From: Actinotignum schaalii
GTDB taxonomy: Bacteria; Actinomycetota; Actinomycetes; Actinomycetales; Actinomycetaceae
Assembly: GCF_000724605.1 (NCBI RefSeq)
Contig: NZ_CP008802.1
Coordinates: 1,736,001 to 1,800,000 of the forward strand
Direction of reading: 5' to 3'
DNA: 64,000 nucleotides
The position numbers and the translations under genes are program-made. How positions within the stretch are numbered: the stretch's first letter is position 1; each line of letters starts with the position of its first letter. Below the pieces are notes generated by a model. The model saw only the letters and a program-made list of their open reading frames with translations, had not been told where the DNA came from and did no database searches. Shown here in pieces: positions 1,689-59,255 of the stretch.

Positions 1689-2243
1689 ATGAAGATTTCA
1701 ATTCTGGTGGGTAGTTTGCGGCGCGGTTCCTACGCGCGCAAAATCGCGAGCGAAGTGGCCGGCTATTTCCCCGAAGGGTACCAGGTGGAGATTGTGGAGA
1801 TCGGTCACCTGCCGCTCTATAACTTCGATTACGACGACGCAGCTGTGACGGACGTACCCCTGCCGGAAAGCTACACCAGCTTCCGGGAAACCATTAAGGC
1901 CAGCGATGGCATCCTCTTTGTCACGCCGGAAAATAACCGCACCGTGCCGGCCTGCCTGAAGAATGCCGTAGATATCGGCTCCAAGCCGAATAGCGATGTG
2001 GCCTGGAAGAACAAGCCGGCCGGCATTATCAGCCATTCGGTGGGGCGCATGGGCGGTTACAGCTCGCAGAAGAACCTGCGCCTGGCGCTTTCCTACTTCG
2101 ATATGCCCATGCCCGGGCAGCCCGAAGTATTCCTGGGCCGCTCCCCGGAGCTCTTCGACGAATCCGGCAAGCTGAAGGCCGATACCGCGGACTTCGTGCG
2201 CGGCTATATTGACCGCTTCGTGGACCTCGTCGAAAAGAAGTAA
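1689..2243 (+). CDS. NAD(P)H-dependent FMN reductase family protein
   Basis: A 184-residue flavodoxin-like protein of the NADPH-dependent FMN reductase family (PF03358). The N-terminal ILVGSLRRGSYARKIA is the FMN phosphate-binding loop, and TPENNRTVPACLKNAVD matches the conserved TPEYN..P..LKNAID region, with Asn-Asn in place of Tyr-Asn. Such cytosolic enzymes reduce FMN or quinones with NAD(P)H. The gene stands alone, followed by a strong hairpin terminator. The ATG at 1689 agrees with the family N-terminus. The physiological substrate cannot be told; it could feed reduced flavin to other enzymes, which is speculation. Confidence 0.85.
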   Translation: MKISILVGSLRRGSYARKIASEVAGYFPEGYQVEIVEIGHLPLYNFDYDDAAVTDVPLPESYTSFRETIKASDGILFVTPENNRTVPACLKNAVDIGSKPNSDVAWKNKPAGIISHSVGRMGGYSSQKNLRLALSYFDMPMPGQPEVFLGRSPELFDESGKLKADTADFVRGYIDRFVDLVEKK

Positions 2244-2264
2244 ATATCGCTTATCGCGTACCGT

Positions 2265-2306
2265 ACCCCCGAGTTGGCTCCCGGCCGGCTCGGGGGTGCT
2301 TTTTCG
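2265..2306 (+). terminator. Rho-independent terminator after FMN reductase
   Basis: Inverted repeat ACCCCCGAG ... CTCGGGGGT followed by GCTTTTTC, 22 bp after the stop codon of the FMN reductase. Confidence 0.8.
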
Positions 2307-2395: not shown

Positions 2396-2442
2396 ACACT
2401 ATATCTAGTGGTCTAAATTGAAGCGACCACAATATCTAGTGT
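2396..2442 (+). promoter_or_regulatory. Tandem NrdR boxes upstream of nrdF
   Basis: Two near-identical 16-bp palindromic boxes: ACACTATATCTAGTGG at 2396-2411 and CCACAATATCTAGTGT at 2427-2442. They match the NrdR consensus (acaCwAtATaTwgtgt). Starts are 31 bp apart, about three helical turns, the usual spacing for cooperative NrdR binding. NrdR represses ribonucleotide reductase genes. The second box ends 22 bp before the chosen nrdF start, so it covers the promoter or the leader. Confidence 0.88.
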
Positions 2443-2464: not shown

Positions 2465-3487
2465 ATGAGCGCACCTGATGGACGGCATTACACCCTGCGT
2501 TCCTTTATGCCGCCGCAGTACATCCAGCATCCCGAGGGGCCTTTCCGGCCGATCAACTGGAATTACGTCCCGGAGGAGAAGGACTTGGAGGTGTGGCGCC
2601 GGCTCACCGCGAATTTCTGGCTGCCGGAAAAGGTACCGCTCTCCAATGACCTGCCCTCCTGGCAGCGCATGAGCGAGGTGGAGCAGACCCTCGTGATGCG
2701 GGTCTTCACCGGCCTGACCCTGCTCGATACCGTGCAGGCCAGCATCGGTGAAATTAGCCAGATTCAGGACGCGCATACCGAACACGAGCAGGCCGTCTAC
2801 GCCAATATCGCCTTTATGCAGGCGGTGCACGCGCGCTCGTATTCCTCGATTTTCTCCACCCTGGCCTCGAGCACCCAGATCGAGGAAGCCTACACCTGGG
2901 CCGTGGATAATCCGCTGCTCCAGCAGCGAGCCAAGGCGGTGCTGGAACACTACGTGGGCGATGATTCGCTTAAGCGCAAGGTTTCCTCCACCCTGCTCTC
3001 CTCGCTGCTGCTCTACGCCGGGTTCTTCCTGCCCCTCTACCTGTCCTGCCGCGGCAAGCTCATGAATACCGCGGATCTTATCCGCCTCATCCTGCGCGAT
3101 AAGGCGGTGCACGGGTACTACTCCGGGTACAAGTACCAGCGCGGCCTGGAAGAATGCAGCGAGGCGCGGCGCGCGGACATGGAAGAATTCACCTACGGGT
3201 TGCTCGAGAAGCTCTACCGGATGGAACTCGACTACTCCGGTGAACTCTACGAACCCGTGGGGTTGATGGACGACGTCGCAATTTTCGTCCGCTACAACGC
3301 CAATAAGGCGCTTATGAACCTTGGCTACCAGGCGCGCTTCAGCGGTGAAGAAACGCGGGTGAGCCCGGAGATCCTCACCGCGCTCTCCCCGGCTGCCGAT
3401 GAAAACCACGATTTCTTCTCCGGGTCGGGTTCTTCCTACATTATTGGGGAATCGGAAGATACCACCGATGACGATTGGGATTTCTAA
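2465..3487 (+). CDS. nrdF: Ribonucleotide reductase small subunit NrdF, class Ie-like (QSK variant)
   Basis: Radical-generating beta subunit of class I ribonucleotide reductase, 340 residues from ATG 2465 (GGAGA at 2456-2460). An upstream TTG or ATG would place the start against the NrdR box. NrdF hallmarks are the helix with HARSYSSIF, the NTADLIRLI segment, HGYYSGYKYQ and the NrdE-docking tail DDDWDF. Compared with standard NrdF, three of four carboxylate metal ligands are replaced: MESVHA reads MQAVHA (Gln119), LESFLFYSG reads LSSLLLYAG (Ser179), and RDEAVHG reads RDKAVHG (Lys213). Asp88, His122, His216 and the radical Tyr126 remain. Gln/Ser/Lys is the known signature of metal-free class Ie enzymes, where an NrdI-dependent modification of the Tyr to DOPA carries the radical. 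nrdH, nrdI and nrdE are not in this window, so the gene is separated from its partners here. Confidence 0.93.
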   Translation: MSAPDGRHYTLRSFMPPQYIQHPEGPFRPINWNYVPEEKDLEVWRRLTANFWLPEKVPLSNDLPSWQRMSEVEQTLVMRVFTGLTLLDTVQASIGEISQIQDAHTEHEQAVYANIAFMQAVHARSYSSIFSTLASSTQIEEAYTWAVDNPLLQQRAKAVLEHYVGDDSLKRKVSSTLLSSLLLYAGFFLPLYLSCRGKLMNTADLIRLILRDKAVHGYYSGYKYQRGLEECSEARRADMEEFTYGLLEKLYRMELDYSGELYEPVGLMDDVAIFVRYNANKALMNLGYQARFSGEETRVSPEILTALSPAADENHDFFSGSGSSYIIGESEDTTDDDWDF

Positions 3488-4117
3488 AGTAGTCCGAAGA
3501 TAAGTAGTCCACATACGAATAGCCGAAGGTGGGCGGCCCAAAGGTCCTGACCTGCGGCGTGATGAGCGGGGTGGTCACCCGCGCGGGTGATGCGTGCGGG
3601 TGGCCGCCCCGAAAAACGAGAGATTGGGTACATTTCGTGGAGTGATGCCCCAGGTCGGAGCCGCGGCGGCACATAAGTATTCACGCGGCGGGACGCGGCG
3701 CGGATCGGGGGATGTACCGCGCGTGCACCCGCCCTTTCGCCGCGCCGGCACGGGACTTTAGTACCGGCTGGGCGGCGCGGGTGACAGGCGAAGCCTCGCA
3801 GCCCCGCGGAAAAGTATTATTATTCACGCAGTTGTGGGCGGTATTGTGGCGGCGTGGGTGCGCGGCCGGGCCCCTGAAAAAGCGGCCGGGCGAGCCTGAG
3901 CGCAGCGAAGCTCCCGGCTCAAAACCGCGCGGTGCTGCGGGTTAATACTTAGTAAATAATTCTGAAACGCTGTGATAAAAAGTTAGTTATCTCCGCGGGG
4001 AAAGCTGTGTTGCTACGCGGTTTATATAACCTTTTGTACTGAATAATTGAATACGGCTCTTTGTGCTAGGCTCATGAATTGTTTAGGCGATTTAGCTGAC
4101 GGGGTCGGTTGAATTGC
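3488..4117. other. Non-coding stretch between nrdF and the giant adhesin
   Basis: No convincing gene. Just after nrdF lie two copies of AAGTAGTCC (3488-3511) and ATAGCCGAAG (3519-3528), words also found after the SdpI gene near 15.04 kb. A loose inverted repeat follows (GTGGGCGGCCC near 3529 with GGGTGGCCGCCCC near 3600). From about 3950 the sequence becomes AT-rich and should hold the adhesin promoter; TAGGCT near 4067 is a possible -10, but no clear -35 is seen. Confidence 0.45.
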
Positions 4118-4129
4118 GGGGGGGGGGGG
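4118..4129 (+). repeat. 12-G homopolymer tract in adhesin leader
   Basis: Twelve consecutive G, 84 bp before the adhesin start codon. A C-rich ACCCTCCC at about 4144-4151 could pair with part of the tract, with AATTG/CAATT just outside, so tract length would change the register of a leader hairpin. Tracts of this length are prone to slipped-strand changes. Confidence 0.7.
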
Positions 4130-4212
4130 TGCTCTCCAGCGCTACCCTCCCACAATTGACGCTCTCCTCACGCTTCACCCTAACGATCCATAAACCTACT
4201 AATGGAGAAATA

Positions 4213-7200
4213 ATGTCCCAACACACGGAGTCGACTCAGTCGGCGCCCGGAGTCTCCGCGTCTGTGTCCCGCAAGGGTGGGCATCGTCGTCGCACGAAAG
4301 TGTGGGCCGGTCTCACCGCCGCGGCGCTCATGACGACGTTTGCTTCGGGAATCGCCTACGCTGCACCGCAAGGTAATTCCGGTGCGGCGCCGACTGCTCC
4401 CACGGCGCAGTGTCCGACGTATGTCGGTGACACCGCTGTCGAAGCAGGCGCGAACCAAGCTGGCGCTAACCGACCGGATATTCCTTTCAAGCAAGATGCC
4501 ATTATCGAAGCCGATGCTTTCAAGACCGGCTGGATTAAGAGCACCACCGATGCCAGTAACGCCAAGAACACGCTCTCGGGGCGTGCGTTCTTCGGTGGCG
4601 TTGGCACGCCGGCAACCACGTCCAATGGTGCAACCCCGGTTCCGGACGGAACCAAGGTGTACCTCCAGTGGCGTGATACCGACGGCGCGGCCTCCCCGAT
4701 TTATTCCACCACCGTCAAGACGATTGACGAGAGCGACGGAAGCCAGATCGGCCCCGGCGCCTACGCTTTTGATCTGCGCGTGCCCTGGGTAGATAACACC
4801 GGCAAGCAGCACCTTTACAAGGCTGTTGACGGCCAGTACTACCGCCTGTGGATCAATGATTTCACCAACCCGGCCGGTAACCCCGTCACCATGGTGCGCC
4901 AGGCCGGCGGCTTCTTCCCGGGTGCCTTCGTCAATAGCGTGACGGCCAATAACCTGGGCCAGTTCCCGCTTATCGGCACGAATATGCAGCGGACCGCGGT
5001 ATTCATGTACACCGATCCGAATGATTACCTCACCCGCCCCAAGAACGAATGGGTCAATGATGAGAAGGGTCCCCTGACCGACCCGGCCGTGACCCTCTCC
5101 ACCCGGGACTCCGTTTCCGGCAAGGTGTGGTTCGAATCCGGTGCTGGCGATCTTGCCAACTCCGCCACCGGCCCGAACTTCAATACCTCGGGTGACGTGG
5201 TGGCCTCCGGCTACACCGTGGTGCTTTCGCAGCTGACCCCCGCGGGCAAGGCTGCGCTCCAGGAACTGCGTAATGCCACCCCGTCCGTGAATGACCGCGA
5301 GGTCAAGGTCCGTGACATGCTCACCGAGCACCCCGATTACATCGAGGGCACCTACACGGCCACCACGAACGAAAAGGGCATGTATACCATCCGCCTGCCG
5401 AAGAACGCCGGCGCGGATGTGGACCGTATTTACATGTACGTCCTGGACCCGAACGGACGAGTAGTCCCGAACTACTCCTCCTTCATGCGCCAGACCTTCA
5501 ATATGTTCAACTCGAATGCTTCGTGGACTCCGCAGACTTCCGCGGCTGTCAATCTGATTACCAATAACTGGTACAACGTCAATCTGGCGCTGGTGCTCAG
5601 CGTGCAGGTGGAACTGGATATTACGAACTTCGACGCCCAGGAAAACTATGCCCTCCCCGGGCAGACCGCTGAAATCAAGCTGACCGGCAAGGATCTCTCC
5701 CCGCTGCCTAACCGCATCGAGTGGACCGATTCCAAGGGCAAGGTTGTGCAGACCAACGGCGGCCTGAAGAAGCTGAGCGACGCCAGCAAGGCATACTTCA
5801 AGGTTCCGGATAACGCGAAGGACGGCGAAATCTACACGGCAACTCTCTATGCTGCCGAGAACGCTGTTTCTTCCGATTCCTTCATCGTGCGCGCGATTCC
5901 CGTCAAGTACGACGCCGTCCAGGTGAAGAAGACCCAAACCGAGAAGAGCAAGGCTCCTTACGCAACCCGCGAAGCCAAGGGCTTCACGCAGGCCGGTAAT
6001 AACAAGTACCAGCTGCCCGCCGATGCCACCTACGAACTGGGTGAAGGCGCGAAGGCCTGGGCTACTGTTGATCCGGCCACCGGCGTGGTGACCGTCAAGC
6101 CCGGCGCGGACGTGGCTCCCTGTGACTACCGCATCCCGGTGGTTGCTACCGTGACCGATCCGCTCAACGCCAAGAACAAGCTCAAGCTCAAGACCTGGGT
6201 TCCGGTCAAGGTGCTGGCGCAGCTCACCGATACCTACGATCCGAATTACAAGCAGGACAATACGGTAGAGGCTGGGAAGACCATTGAGGTCCCGGCCCCC
6301 ACCTTCGATAAGGTCGCTACCAAGAAGGTTGAAACTGATCCCGCTCCGACGGAGAAGGGCAAGAAGACCACCTTCAAGCTCGGCGACAACTCCCCGATTA
6401 CCGCCACGGTTAACCCCGAAACCGGCGCCATTACGGTGACCCCGGCCGCGGGTACCGCCGCTGGCCCCTACGAGGTTCCCGTTGTTGTCACCTACCCGGA
6501 TGGCAGCACCGATACCGTCAAGGTTCCGGTTACCGTGACCGTTCCGGCTCCGGTGGATACCGATAATGACGGTGTGAACGACGACGCAGACCAGTGCCCC
6601 ACCATCGCCGGTCCGGCTTCCAACAATGGTTGCCCGGCGTGGAGTGATGGCGAGGGTAAGCCCGGCGCGGACGTGACGCTGGCGAAGGATCCCGCTAACG
6701 GCGATATCCCGAACACCGCGACCTGCGTGGCGGGTAATGGTGCTACCTGCACCATCGGCCAGGACGGCAATATCACCGTGAAGGTGCCGGACGGCGCGAC
6801 CCCCGGTACCGAGATCCCGGTGACCGTCAAGAATGACGGCAAGGACCTGGACACCTCCAAGGTGACCGTGCTTGCTCCGAATAACCCGGCCTGGAATGAC
6901 ACGACCACCAAGCCGAGCGAACCGGCTCAGCTGCCTAACGCGGGTGGCCCGGTTCCGGATGGTTCCACCGTTGAGGTGACCGGTCCGGGTACCGCCAAGC
7001 TCAACCAGGATGGCTCGATCACGGTCACTCCGAACGCGAATGCGAAGGATAAGGACCAGATCGTTGTCAAGGTCAAGGACCCCAACGGTAAGGACCTGGA
7101 TACGGCGACCGTGACCATTGCGGATCCTGATCCTGATAAGGATGGGGTGTCCGGGGATGCCGATCAGTGCCCGACCATCGCAGGGCCGGCTTCCAATAAT

Positions 7201-9213
7201 GGTTGCCCGGCGTGGAACGACGGCGAAGGTAAGCCCGGCACTGATGTGACGCTCACGAAGGATCCGGCCAATGGCCCGATTCCGGCTTCGGCCACCTGTG
7301 AAGCAACCGGTGGTGCCACGTGCACCATTGGCGGGGATGGCAACGTCGTCGTCAAGGTTCCGGAGGGTGCAACCCCCGGTACCGAGATTGCGGTGACCAT
7401 CAAGGATGGTGACAAGGTCCTCGACAAGTCCAAGGTGACCGTCACGGCGCCCGCTCCGGTTCCGAACCCGGACGGCGATAACGACGGTGTGCCCGACGCG
7501 ACCGACCAGTGCCCCACCATCGCCGGCCCGGCTTCCAATAACGGTTGCCCGGCGTGGAACGACGGCGAAGGTAAGCCCGGCGCGGACGTGACGCTCACAA
7601 AGGACCCGGCCAATGGCCCGATTCCGGCTTCTGCCACCTGTGAAGCAACCGGCGGTGCTACCTGCACCATCGGTGCGGATGGCAATGTTGTGGTCAAGGT
7701 ACCCGCCGACGCCAAGGACAAGTCCGAGATCACCGTGACCATCAAGGATGGCGATAAGGTTCTCGACACCTCCAAGGTGACTGTTAAGGATCCGGATACC
7801 GATGGCGATGGCCTGACCGATTCCGAAGAGGAAAAGATCGGGACCGATCCGAACAACCCGGATACTGACGGTGATGGGATCAACGACGGTGACGAGGTCA
7901 ATGGCACCAAGAACCCGTTCAAGGACGATAAGTTCAATAAGGACGGCAAGCCTGGTAACACCGATCCGCTCAACCCGGACACTGATGGTGACGGGGTGAA
8001 TGACGGTGACGAAGTCACCGGTAAGAACAACGGTGGCAAGCCGACTAACCCGAACAAGGCCGATACCGATGGCGACGGCGTGACCGACGCTGACGAAATC
8101 AAGGACGGCACGGACCCGAACAACGCTGACACCGATGGCGACGGCGTGAATGACGGGGACGAGAAGAAGGACGGGACTGACCCGAAGAATCCGGATACCG
8201 ATGGTGACGGCGTGTCTGATGGTCGTGAAAAGGACCTGGGCACCGATCCGAAGAATCCGGATACTGATGGGGATGGCCTGACCGATGGTGAGGAAGCCGG
8301 TACGGATATCGACGAGAATGGTAAGCCTGCTCGTAATGAGGATGGCACCCCGAAGGTTGATGACTCCAAGGCCACCAAGACCGACCCGAAGAACCCCGAT
8401 ACCGACGGTGACGGACTCGCCGATGGTGAGGAAAAGAAGATCGGTACTGATCCGAAGAACCCTGACACTGACGGTGACGGGCTCACGGATGGGGATGAGG
8501 TGAACGGCACCAAGAACCCGTTCCAGGACGATAAGTTCAATAAGGACGGCAAGCCCGGTAATACTGACCCGCTCAACCCTGACACCGATGGTGACGGTCT
8601 CACTGATGGTGATGAGGTGACGGGTGCGAAGAATGGTGGCAAGCCGACTAACCCGAATAAGGCCGATACCGATGGTGACGGCGTCAATGATGGCGACGAA
8701 ATCAATAACGGTACCGACCCGAACAAGGGCGACACCGACGGTGATGGCCTGACCGACGGTGAGGAAAAGGTGATCGGGACTGATCCGAAGAACCCTGACA
8801 CCGATGGCGATGGGATCAATGACGGGGATGAGGTCAATGGCACGAAGAACCCGTTCAAGGATGACAAGTTCAATAAGGACGGCAAGCCCGGTAACACTGA
8901 CCCGCTCAACCCTGACACCGATGGTGATGGTCTCACTGATGGTGACGAGGTGACGGGCGTGAAGAATGGTGGCAAGCCGACTAACCCGAATAAGGCCGAC
9001 ACGGATGGTGATGGTATCAATGACGGTGACGAGATTAAGAACGGCACCGATCCGTTGAACCCGAACGATCCGGGTAAGCCTGCACCGAAGACTAAGAAGG
9101 TCAAGAAGGCCAAGGGCCTGACCGCGACCGGTGCCGATGTGGCATCGCTGGCTGTCTTCGCTCTGCTGGCCGCCGGTGCGGGTAGCGTGGCAATTCGCCG
9201 CCGCAAGAAGTAA
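4213..9213 (+). CDS. Giant wall-anchored thrombospondin type 3 repeat adhesin
   Basis: 1,666 residues from ATG 4213 (GGAGAAA five bases upstream). A long twin-Arg-free signal peptide (HRRRTK, then [19 protein letters not shown]) is followed by about 550 residues of unassigned beta-rich sequence. A Rib/YPDG-like domain ([17 protein letters not shown]) lies near residue 760. Three copies of a module beginning [20 protein letters not shown] start near residues 785, 975 and 1090. From about 1,190 to 1,620 come many Asp-rich DTDGDGxxDGxE repeats of the bacterial thrombospondin type 3 kind, which bind calcium and stiffen stalks. The tail is LTATGADV, a hydrophobic helix and RRRKK, a sorting signal with a non-LPXTG motif. 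Role as a calcium-stabilised adhesin is inference. A poly-G tract in the leader suggests variable expression. Confidence 0.85.
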
Positions 9214-20236: not shown

Positions 20237-20255
20237 TTAGGTGGCCCTAACTTTA
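20237..20255 (-). promoter_or_regulatory. DtxR/IdeR-type iron box before siderophore operon
   Basis: TTAGGTGGCCCTAACTTTA matches the 19-bp DtxR/IdeR consensus at about 15 positions (TTAGG-N4-CCTAA core). Located directly upstream of the binding-protein gene, so the operon should be derepressed under iron limitation. Two further boxes with the same spacing lie at about 25612 and 35666. Confidence 0.82.
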
Positions 20256-59104: not shown

Positions 59105-59110
59105 GGACGG

Positions 59111-59206
59111 CACGACAGGGGAGCGCAGCAGCGCTGAGAGTGCGGCCGGCACGCGGCACGCAGACCCTCGAACCTGATCCGGTTAGTACCGGCGAAGGGA
59201 GTCGAG
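59111..59206 (+). ncRNA. TPP (THI-box) riboswitch
   Basis: Conserved TPP aptamer elements in order: CAGGGGAGC, GCTGAGAGTGCGGC, GCAGACCCTCGAACCTGATCC, GGTTAGTACCGGCGAAGGGAG. Downstream, CCTCCT (59231-59236) can pair with the ribosome binding site AGGAGG (59246-59251), and CTCCG/CGGAG (59215-59228) forms a competing hairpin, indicating translational control of thiB by thiamine pyrophosphate. Confidence 0.95.
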
Positions 59207-59255
59207 ATCTCTCCTCCGCACCGCGGAGACCCTCCTTATATCCTGAGGAGGATGC

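Follow-up and report, generated by a model that had tools for sequence, protein, structure and literature searches.

The gene at positions 2465..3487 on the forward strand of the 64,000-nucleotide stretch of Actinotignum schaalii DNA that we analyzed (the window) encodes a ribonucleotide reductase small subunit (R2) in which the metal site looks altered. The locus raises the question of what kind of R2 this is, with which partners it would work, and why an organism that also has a canonical R2 would keep it.

The QSK small subunit and its partners

The gene, designated here nrdF2, corresponds to C1:1738465-1739487 in the genome and encodes a 340-aa product that matches PF00268 in Pfam. Its frame is open and intact over 2465-3487; a mechanical ORF starts at a TTG at 2444, and the ATG at 2465 has GGAGA immediately 5' to it. 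The protein is 98% identical to the A. timonense copy and 96% identical to that of A. sanguinis. A PDB search identified the Gardnerella R2e-QSK structures 8RAG and 8RAH as the closest solved structures (E 4e-150). Residues 13-340 aligned with them without a gap at an offset of +24, so that Gln119, Ser179, Lys213 and Tyr126 correspond to Q143, S203, K237 and Y150.

We placed NrdF2 in an alignment of 82 NrdF rows, made of 80 loci, the window NrdF2 and the product of the canonical nrdF1 of the same genome. Asp88, Gln119, His122, Tyr126, Ser179, Lys213 and His216 occupied the ligand and radical columns, and these seven columns read DQHYSKH in 40 rows and DEHYEEH in 42, accounting for all 82. The codons of Gln119 (2819..2821), Ser179 (2999..3001) and Lys213 (3101..3103), all on the forward strand, fall in columns of Glu ligands. 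NrdF2 is without the three Glu metal ligands of class Ib R2, which the nrdF1 product has. The codon of Tyr126, the residue expected to become DOPA from the function described in the part of PMC11846895 used here, lies at 2840..2842 of the same strand. The first-pass annotation had read Gln119, Ser179 and Lys213 as replacements of metal-binding glutamates in a protein that keeps Asp88, both histidines and Tyr126. The retained residues are as it said, and all three replacements match Q143, S203 and K237 of Gardnerella and stay in the ligand columns rather than off them. A maximum-likelihood tree of 98 NrdF rows (ligand columns retained, VPK rows absent) put 56 QSK rows, with NrdF2 inside, on one side of a branch with an SH-aLRT support of 100, and the nrdF1 product among the 42 EEE rows on the opposite side. 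Alignment, tree and closest structure concur with the earlier class assignment and, judged by its residues and its clade, NrdF2 is a member of the already described class Ie QSK type. The type itself, with its metal-free DOPA site, its need for NrdI and its spread in Actinomycetota, has been published (PMC11846895, in the part used here). Among the best 30 of 104 plasmid records that matched NrdF2, the top one being 64% identical, no close relative was found; the annotated plasmid records among these 30 were labelled class Ib by their annotation.

The genome (2.16 Mb) holds two nrdF genes, one nrdI, one class I R1 gene (nrdE) and one class III gene (nrdD). The one nrdI and the one nrdE are both in nrdHIE at C1:1643320-1646159, and the canonical nrdF1 (DEHYEEH) is at C1:1651697-1652674. 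The first-pass annotation had described nrdF2 as separate from nrdHIE, and the distance is 92 kb; the second canonical nrdF and the nrdI that it proposed to look for elsewhere in the genome were located as nrdF1 and within nrdHIE, respectively. There is no nrdI adjacent to nrdF2, a gene that is nearby in 34 of the 39 named QSK loci but is non-defining chemically, and the NrdI available to NrdF2 is that of nrdHIE. Both nrdF genes were found in five of six genus genomes, with the nrdF2 frame intact and 96-100% identity. The sixth genome (G005) had a single nrdF match, of the nrdF1 kind, and no QSK copy; its nrdHIE and nrdF1 have the same order and spacing as in our genome.

Since there is a single NrdI and a single NrdE for two R2s, both R2 proteins must share them. 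The C-terminal tail of R2 docks R1 in the NrdF family, and the last 34 residues of NrdF1 and NrdF2 are identical at 31 positions; this tail is well conserved family-wide, so the identity is a weak point. In a NrdE tree built without Gardnerella, QSK-operon and EEE-operon sequences were fully separate (support of 100) and our NrdE fell on the EEE side, an arrangement against which placement with QSK was not rejected (p-AU 0.17). The placement of our NrdI had a support of 82, with a p-AU of 0.79 for the alternative. Gardnerella NrdI grouped with Bifidobacteriaceae class Ib sequences (99), and Gardnerella NrdE likewise grouped with Bifidobacterium class Ib sequences. By the same placement, a QSK NrdF seems to have been recruited into a class Ib operon in Gardnerella (L034, L036 and L037). 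The NrdI and NrdE of Gardnerella function with its QSK NrdF, and some QSK nrdF genes rely on a distant nrdE according to the survey in the same paper (PMC11846895, as far as drawn on here). Because in this laboratory-proven system a QSK NrdF works alongside an NrdI and an NrdE of class Ib-like type, it is plausible that NrdI and NrdE are shared between the QSK and the canonical R2 in Actinotignum.

NrdR-type boxes upstream of nrdF2

Two NrdR-type boxes precede nrdF2 on the forward strand. The first, ACACTATATCTAGTGG at 2396..2411, is the same in all five QSK-bearing genus genomes, and a pattern scan located the second, CCACAATATCTAGTGT, at 2427..2442, 31 bp from the first; one of the two matches on the other strand too. 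The pattern was derived from the genome's own promoters and from the known NrdR box. Its exact matches in the whole genome occur only before nrdH, where two boxes lie 32 bp apart, and before nrdF2. With one mismatch allowed, ten more sites appeared, including one before nrdD, for a total of 15, close to the 11 given by a reversed-pattern control. Independent support came from 40 class Ib loci, 24 of which had the pattern with at most two mismatches, compared to 0.1 in shuffles. The nrdF2 boxes were identical, with 0 mismatches, in 5/5 QSK-bearing genus genomes. No NrdR site was found at up to 3 mismatches in the nrdF1 promoters of the same five genomes; the nrdF1 promoter of our genome has no box (best match with 6 mismatches), and neither has the promoter of fmnR, the gene upstream of nrdF2. 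The boxes common to nrdF2 and nrdHIE mark nrdF2 as the putative NrdR-responsive R2 here. In G005, an NrdR-like site with 3 mismatches lies at -72 of the single nrdF, followed ~31 bp further by what looks by eye like part of a second. From this one comparison with G005, our reading is that the metal-free R2 would have taken over NrdR control from the manganese R2.

Two other elements were considered. The 11-mer GGCGTCGTCGT also precedes nrdH, nrdF1 and nrdF2; it was ruled out as a shared nrd promoter element, as it occurs 10 times in the window, on both strands (e.g. 2334, 17129, 33323 and 48544). With at most 3 mismatches, the palindrome GTTCGGCAYRCCGAAC lies 5' of the nrd operons in 13 of 43 QSK groups and at 2 of 40 class Ib loci, counts that provide a lead only because the pattern was drawn from the same loci; it was not found in the window promoters.

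A flavin reductase and manganese-type genes around QSK nrdF

Upstream of nrdF2, at 1689..2243 of the forward strand, lies fmnR, a recurrent QSK nrdF neighbour that encodes a 184-aa protein of the PF03358 NADPH-dependent FMN reductase family (110 bits, cut-off 24). Its nearest PDB relatives are 1RTT, 3U7R (which we take to be FerB), YieF and chromate reductases. Residue 89 (1953-1955), the Cys of a PAC motif within a conserved PENN stretch, is invariant in 14 dereplicated fmnR sequences. A terminator-like hairpin with a stem of 17 pairs lies between the two genes at 2263..2299 of the forward strand and recurs in L003, L004 and L092; the scanned stretch had three terminator-like sites against a shuffled mean of 3.0. 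Given this hairpin, fmnR and nrdF2 are probably transcribed separately in this genus.

Ten named genera, or eleven counting Brachybacterium, have a close relative of fmnR in the vicinity of QSK nrdF. In whole-genome searches fmnR was present in 19 of the 39 named QSK genomes, with Micrococcus lylae as a twentieth in which the copy is cut by a contig end, and in none of 11 EEE genomes (those of 11 of the 41 EEE loci). These 20 genomes carry 21 copies, each at most 10 kb from a QSK nrdF and on its strand; in Leucobacter sp. 7(1), the additional copy (L219) comes after a second QSK nrdF. With near-copies included, fmnR was on the nrdF strand in 27/27 pairs measured. The fmnR and nrdF distances of 14 dereplicated linked pairs were correlated (Mantel r 0.62, p 0.004; Spearman 0.49, p 0.016).

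We also examined even samples of the order (396 genomes) and the class (394 genomes). In the order sample, fmnR relatives of at least 70% identity occurred in 13 genomes, the next tier being at 36-42%, and QSK nrdF, with residues checked, occurred in at least 36. Ten of the 13 were among these QSK genomes (Fisher p 3e-9). Seven of the ten have fmnR linked to an intact QSK nrdF; in the remaining three, fmnR lies beside a decayed copy (G051), on two small contigs (G241), or unlinked and 2.2 Mb from QSK nrdF (G377). In G051 (L157), fmnR adjoins both this decayed nrdF, which is QSK-like, and the remains of an nrdI-like gene, and an intact QSK copy is elsewhere in the genome. Four genomes (G348, G219, G041 and G789) have fmnR without QSK nrdF. 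The class sample had fmnR in two genomes (ours and G789) and QSK nrdF (E 1e-141 or better) in three (ours, G011 and G602), so that both occurred together in our genome only. In the fmnR tree, the family was monophyletic (99), and the five unlinked copies (L153-L156 and L216) were dispersed within it.

Class Ib NrdF uses manganese, and a class Ie QSK protein would replace it. When the genes within 9 kb of the 39 named QSK loci were clustered unprompted, nrdI and nrdE came out on top, followed by a cluster of ABC ATPases that was too broad to be scored and then by fmnR, of which the clustering caught only 12 loci; GTP-PEPCK, a DtxR/MntR-type regulator, a metal ABC permease and a metal-binding lipoprotein were also recovered. 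A directed scan of these loci located fmnR at 19, the MntR-type gene at 15, PEPCK at 8, the binding protein at 7 and the permease at 6, with at least one manganese-type gene near 17/39; each of the five was near 0/41 EEE loci. The 39 loci were free of any fmnR-based choice, yet are the nearest relatives of nrdF2, and the same holds for the 41 EEE loci. Dereplication at 97% NrdF identity left 28 named groups, with fmnR in 11, the MntR-type gene in 11, PEPCK in 7, the permease in 6 and the binding protein in 5; any manganese-type gene was present in 11 groups, any module in 16 and no module in 12. A wider set of 64 QSK loci, duplicates included, comprised four chosen for carrying fmnR (L160, L161, L165 and L217) and was taken without the 13 order-sample QSK genomes (11 Bifidobacterium-like, G366 and G241). 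It gave 43 groups, of which 15 had fmnR, 16 the MntR-type gene, 7 PEPCK, 9 the permease and 9 the binding protein; any manganese-type gene was in 17, any module in 24 and none in 19. Each module was found in 0/31 EEE (class Ib) groups. With dereplication at 93%, 13/33 QSK groups had any manganese-type gene and 18/33 any module, compared to 0/19 EEE groups.

A within-genome control was assembled from 14 EEE loci of QSK-bearing genomes, minus two that hold a QSK gene, plus our own nrdF1, giving 13 loci. Manganese genes were present at one of them (G377), and fmnR or PEPCK at none; the comparison with 17/43 QSK groups gave a p of 0.03. At the G377 locus (L251), a manganese importer and an MntR-type gene adjoin the class Ib nrdHIEF and not the QSK operon, indicating that the link between QSK and manganese is not exclusive.

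One regulator (L019) was scanned and scored best against MntR, under that model's curated cut-off; a single scanned binding protein (L035) matched manganese and zinc models, both under cut-off. The xxEH residue of the regulators and the Glu or His of the binding proteins are markers of metal type. The xxEH metal motif carries E or D instead of Cys in each of the 25 regulators, and Glu occupies the place of the zinc-type His in each of the 16 binding proteins. We infer from these residues that the metal of the neighbour module is manganese. In 11 loci the nrd operon and a gene for an SBP or PEPCK point away from each other across a gap of 175-331 bp (518 bp in L014).

No manganese genes were found near nrdF2 itself in the window, in L086-L088 or in the 10-kb flanks of L003 and L004, so that a manganese-sparing role in this genus is inferred. 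The first-pass annotation had related metal-independence to three iron-regulated uptake loci in the window. Two DtxR-like sites with 5 mismatches each were present in the 64 kb, compared to 0 in five shuffles, so that the three loci found weak support. The proposed tie to iron uptake is likewise weak in the window, and the module that recurs around QSK nrdF elsewhere is of the manganese type. One DtxR-like site, at 20237, is just 5' of a PF01497 binding protein gene. Also in the window are what looks by eye like a 1699-aa surface-type protein (4114-9213) with many repeats and a C-terminal anchor-like end, and a TPP riboswitch (59107-59217) before an ABC-type binding protein gene.

Eleven PEPCK copies lie in cassettes near QSK loci (L219 included), and those of L160 and L161 repeat those of L032 and L033. 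The three that we scanned matched both PEPCK_GTP Pfam domains. Compared with the GTP-PEPCKs of M. tuberculosis (4R43), human and rat, the cassette paralogue matches over nearly its whole length and keeps the P-loop and the metal Asp. A structural alignment defines metal site 1 as Lys, His and Asp (PMC4370629, in the part used), and it is this Lys that holds oxaloacetate-bound Mn (PMC7948413, likewise in part). In 11/11 cassette copies the Lys is replaced by Ile and the His by Gln, with the Asp kept; these substitutions set them apart from all three reference enzymes. Taken with the QSK NrdF, this ligand loss means that the same loci carry two enzymes with lost metal ligands. Copies that have lost manganese-site ligands in this way would extend the idea of manganese sparing to a central carbon enzyme.

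Six loci of different genera (L032, L033, L160, L161, L221 and L222) have QSK nrdIEF cassettes with NrdF proteins at least 97% identical, a sign of recent horizontal transfer, and IS3-like genes were seen by eye near the L160 and L161 cassettes. Leucobacter sp. 7(1) has two QSK cassettes (L010 and L219), each with nrdI, nrdE, fmnR and a PEPCK paralogue. Neighbourhoods in PMC11846895 comprised RNR genes within 300 nt, and its main text makes no mention of a transporter, MntR or NADPH. We found no paper tying class Ie to flavin reductase, MntR or PEPCK, although Srinivas 2018 and Blaesi 2018 may mention such neighbours; a review on class Ie and MntR (PMC9936198), as far as covered, gave no such tie. 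No paper joining nrdF and ribonucleotide reductase with an NADPH-dependent FMN reductase was found either.

Proposed role and comparison with known systems

We consider it likely that the nrdF2 product is a functional class Ie R2 of the QSK type that is fed by NrdI and a flavin reductase, uses the shared NrdE, responds to NrdR and is useful when manganese is scarce. A flavin reductase, for which the adjacent FmnR is the likeliest candidate, would reduce the single cellular NrdI, which would then make superoxide or a related oxidant that converts Tyr126 to DOPA and its radical. Lys213 would stand in for metal 1 in the NrdF2 site, and the radical would be handed to the single shared NrdE. With the manganese-type nrdF1 lacking NrdR boxes, nrdF2 would be the R2 that answers to NrdR, and its selective value would be deoxynucleotide supply under manganese scarcity. 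The residues, clade, gene content, boxes and neighbour statistics come from our analysis, and the metal-free state, DOPA and NrdI-dependence are carried over from the published Gardnerella protein.

An unlikely but serious alternative is that NrdF2 is nothing more than a typical QSK R2 of class Ie and came by its neighbours through accidents of horizontal transfer, with no selection for manganese sparing. Near-identical QSK NrdF proteins in different genera, IS-like genes near some of them, the 12/28 named groups without any module and the incomplete linkage of fmnR and manganese genes would all suit it. Accident does not readily account for modules in 16/28 named and 24/43 wider QSK groups against 0/31 class Ib groups, for the common strand of all 27 fmnR-nrdF pairs (near-copies included), or for the correlated distances of the 14 rows (Mantel r 0.62, p 0.004). 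It is a little less probable still that FmnR is a quinone reductase of the YieF/ChrR/FerB kind, a family known for quinone reduction, which would return dopaquinone or free quinones to hydroquinone and would not reduce NrdI. The nearest solved relatives of FmnR (1RTT, 3U7R, YieF and chromate reductases) fit this assignment, but the DOPA is buried.

That nrdF2 is a decaying or inactive paralogue, with nrdF1 doing the work, is very improbable. It is solitary, without its own nrdI and nrdE, and a decayed QSK copy is known elsewhere (L157); however, its frame is intact with 96-100% identity across five genus genomes, every active-site residue is kept and its NrdR-type boxes are without mismatch. 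Least credible of all is a residual metal site made of the retained Asp88, His122 and His216, as Gardnerella QSK, with the same residues, had trace Mn and Fe by TXRF and metal-free crystals (PMC11846895, in the part used).

Within the favoured explanation of a working, NrdI-fed QSK R2, the claims differ in strength. A manganese-sparing role of class Ie QSK is reasonably probable for the group and less so for this genus. FmnR may be the electron donor for NrdI, an assignment to which we would not quite commit ourselves. A more speculative possibility is that actinobacterial QSK is a mobile manganese-sparing cassette, comprising an MntR-type switch, a manganese importer, a metal-free RNR with an NrdI-feeding flavin reductase, and a GTP-PEPCK that, with the Lys and His of metal site 1 gone, would run without catalytic Mn(II). 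In this genus it would have been cut down to fmnR and nrdF2, with NrdR control passed to the metal-free R2. What is new here is the system around QSK nrdF, of which our genus displays only fmnR and the NrdR switch, the manganese part coming from relatives. The recurrence of manganese-uptake and MntR-type genes nearby would explain why a metal-free reductase exists and indicates under which conditions it should be produced. We know of no NrdI reductase for class Ie, and the conserved flavin reductase encoded close to QSK nrdF offers a specific candidate open to test. The maturation components of the class Ie DOPA radical were still open in a 2021 review (PMC8463856), and a 2025 study lacked means to keep NrdI reduced in the assay (PMC11846895), both as far as used here.

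Among known systems, the manganese sparing of Staphylococcus aureus (PMC12421985, PMC9973326 and PMC6684088, in the parts used), in which manganese enzymes are cut or replaced alongside MntR and mntABC, follows the same idea; it uses superoxide dismutase, aldolase and phosphoglycerate mutase, and no ribonucleotide reductase or PEPCK was found in those parts. An NrdI reductase is known in Bacillus cereus, where FNR2 passes electrons from NAD(P)H to NrdI, the job proposed for FmnR (PMC10294844, in part). FNR2 is a TrxR-like FAD enzyme, whereas FmnR belongs to the PF03358 family and has a candidate role. NrdF2 also matches the class Ie VPK structures 6GP2 and 6EBO (Mesoplasma, Aerococcus, Streptococcus), and metal-free DOPA chemistry is expected of both; VPK proteins have Val/Pro/Lys where NrdF2 has Gln/Ser/Lys, and the published survey found their genes arranged as nrdFIE in nearly every genome it covered. 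The closest system is the class Ie QSK of Gardnerella vaginalis (8RAG, 8RAH), which has the same Gln/Ser/Lys for three Glu, retains the Asp, two His and Tyr, falls in one clade with NrdF2 and has class Ib-like NrdI and NrdE by tree. Its R2 was metal-free, DOPA-containing, active and NrdI-dependent by experiment, and its nrdHIEF is one operon in a genome with no other class I R2 (PMC11846895, in the part used). In Actinotignum, on the other hand, nrdF2 is solitary, NrdI and NrdE would be shared with nrdF1, and an FMN reductase gene is adjacent.
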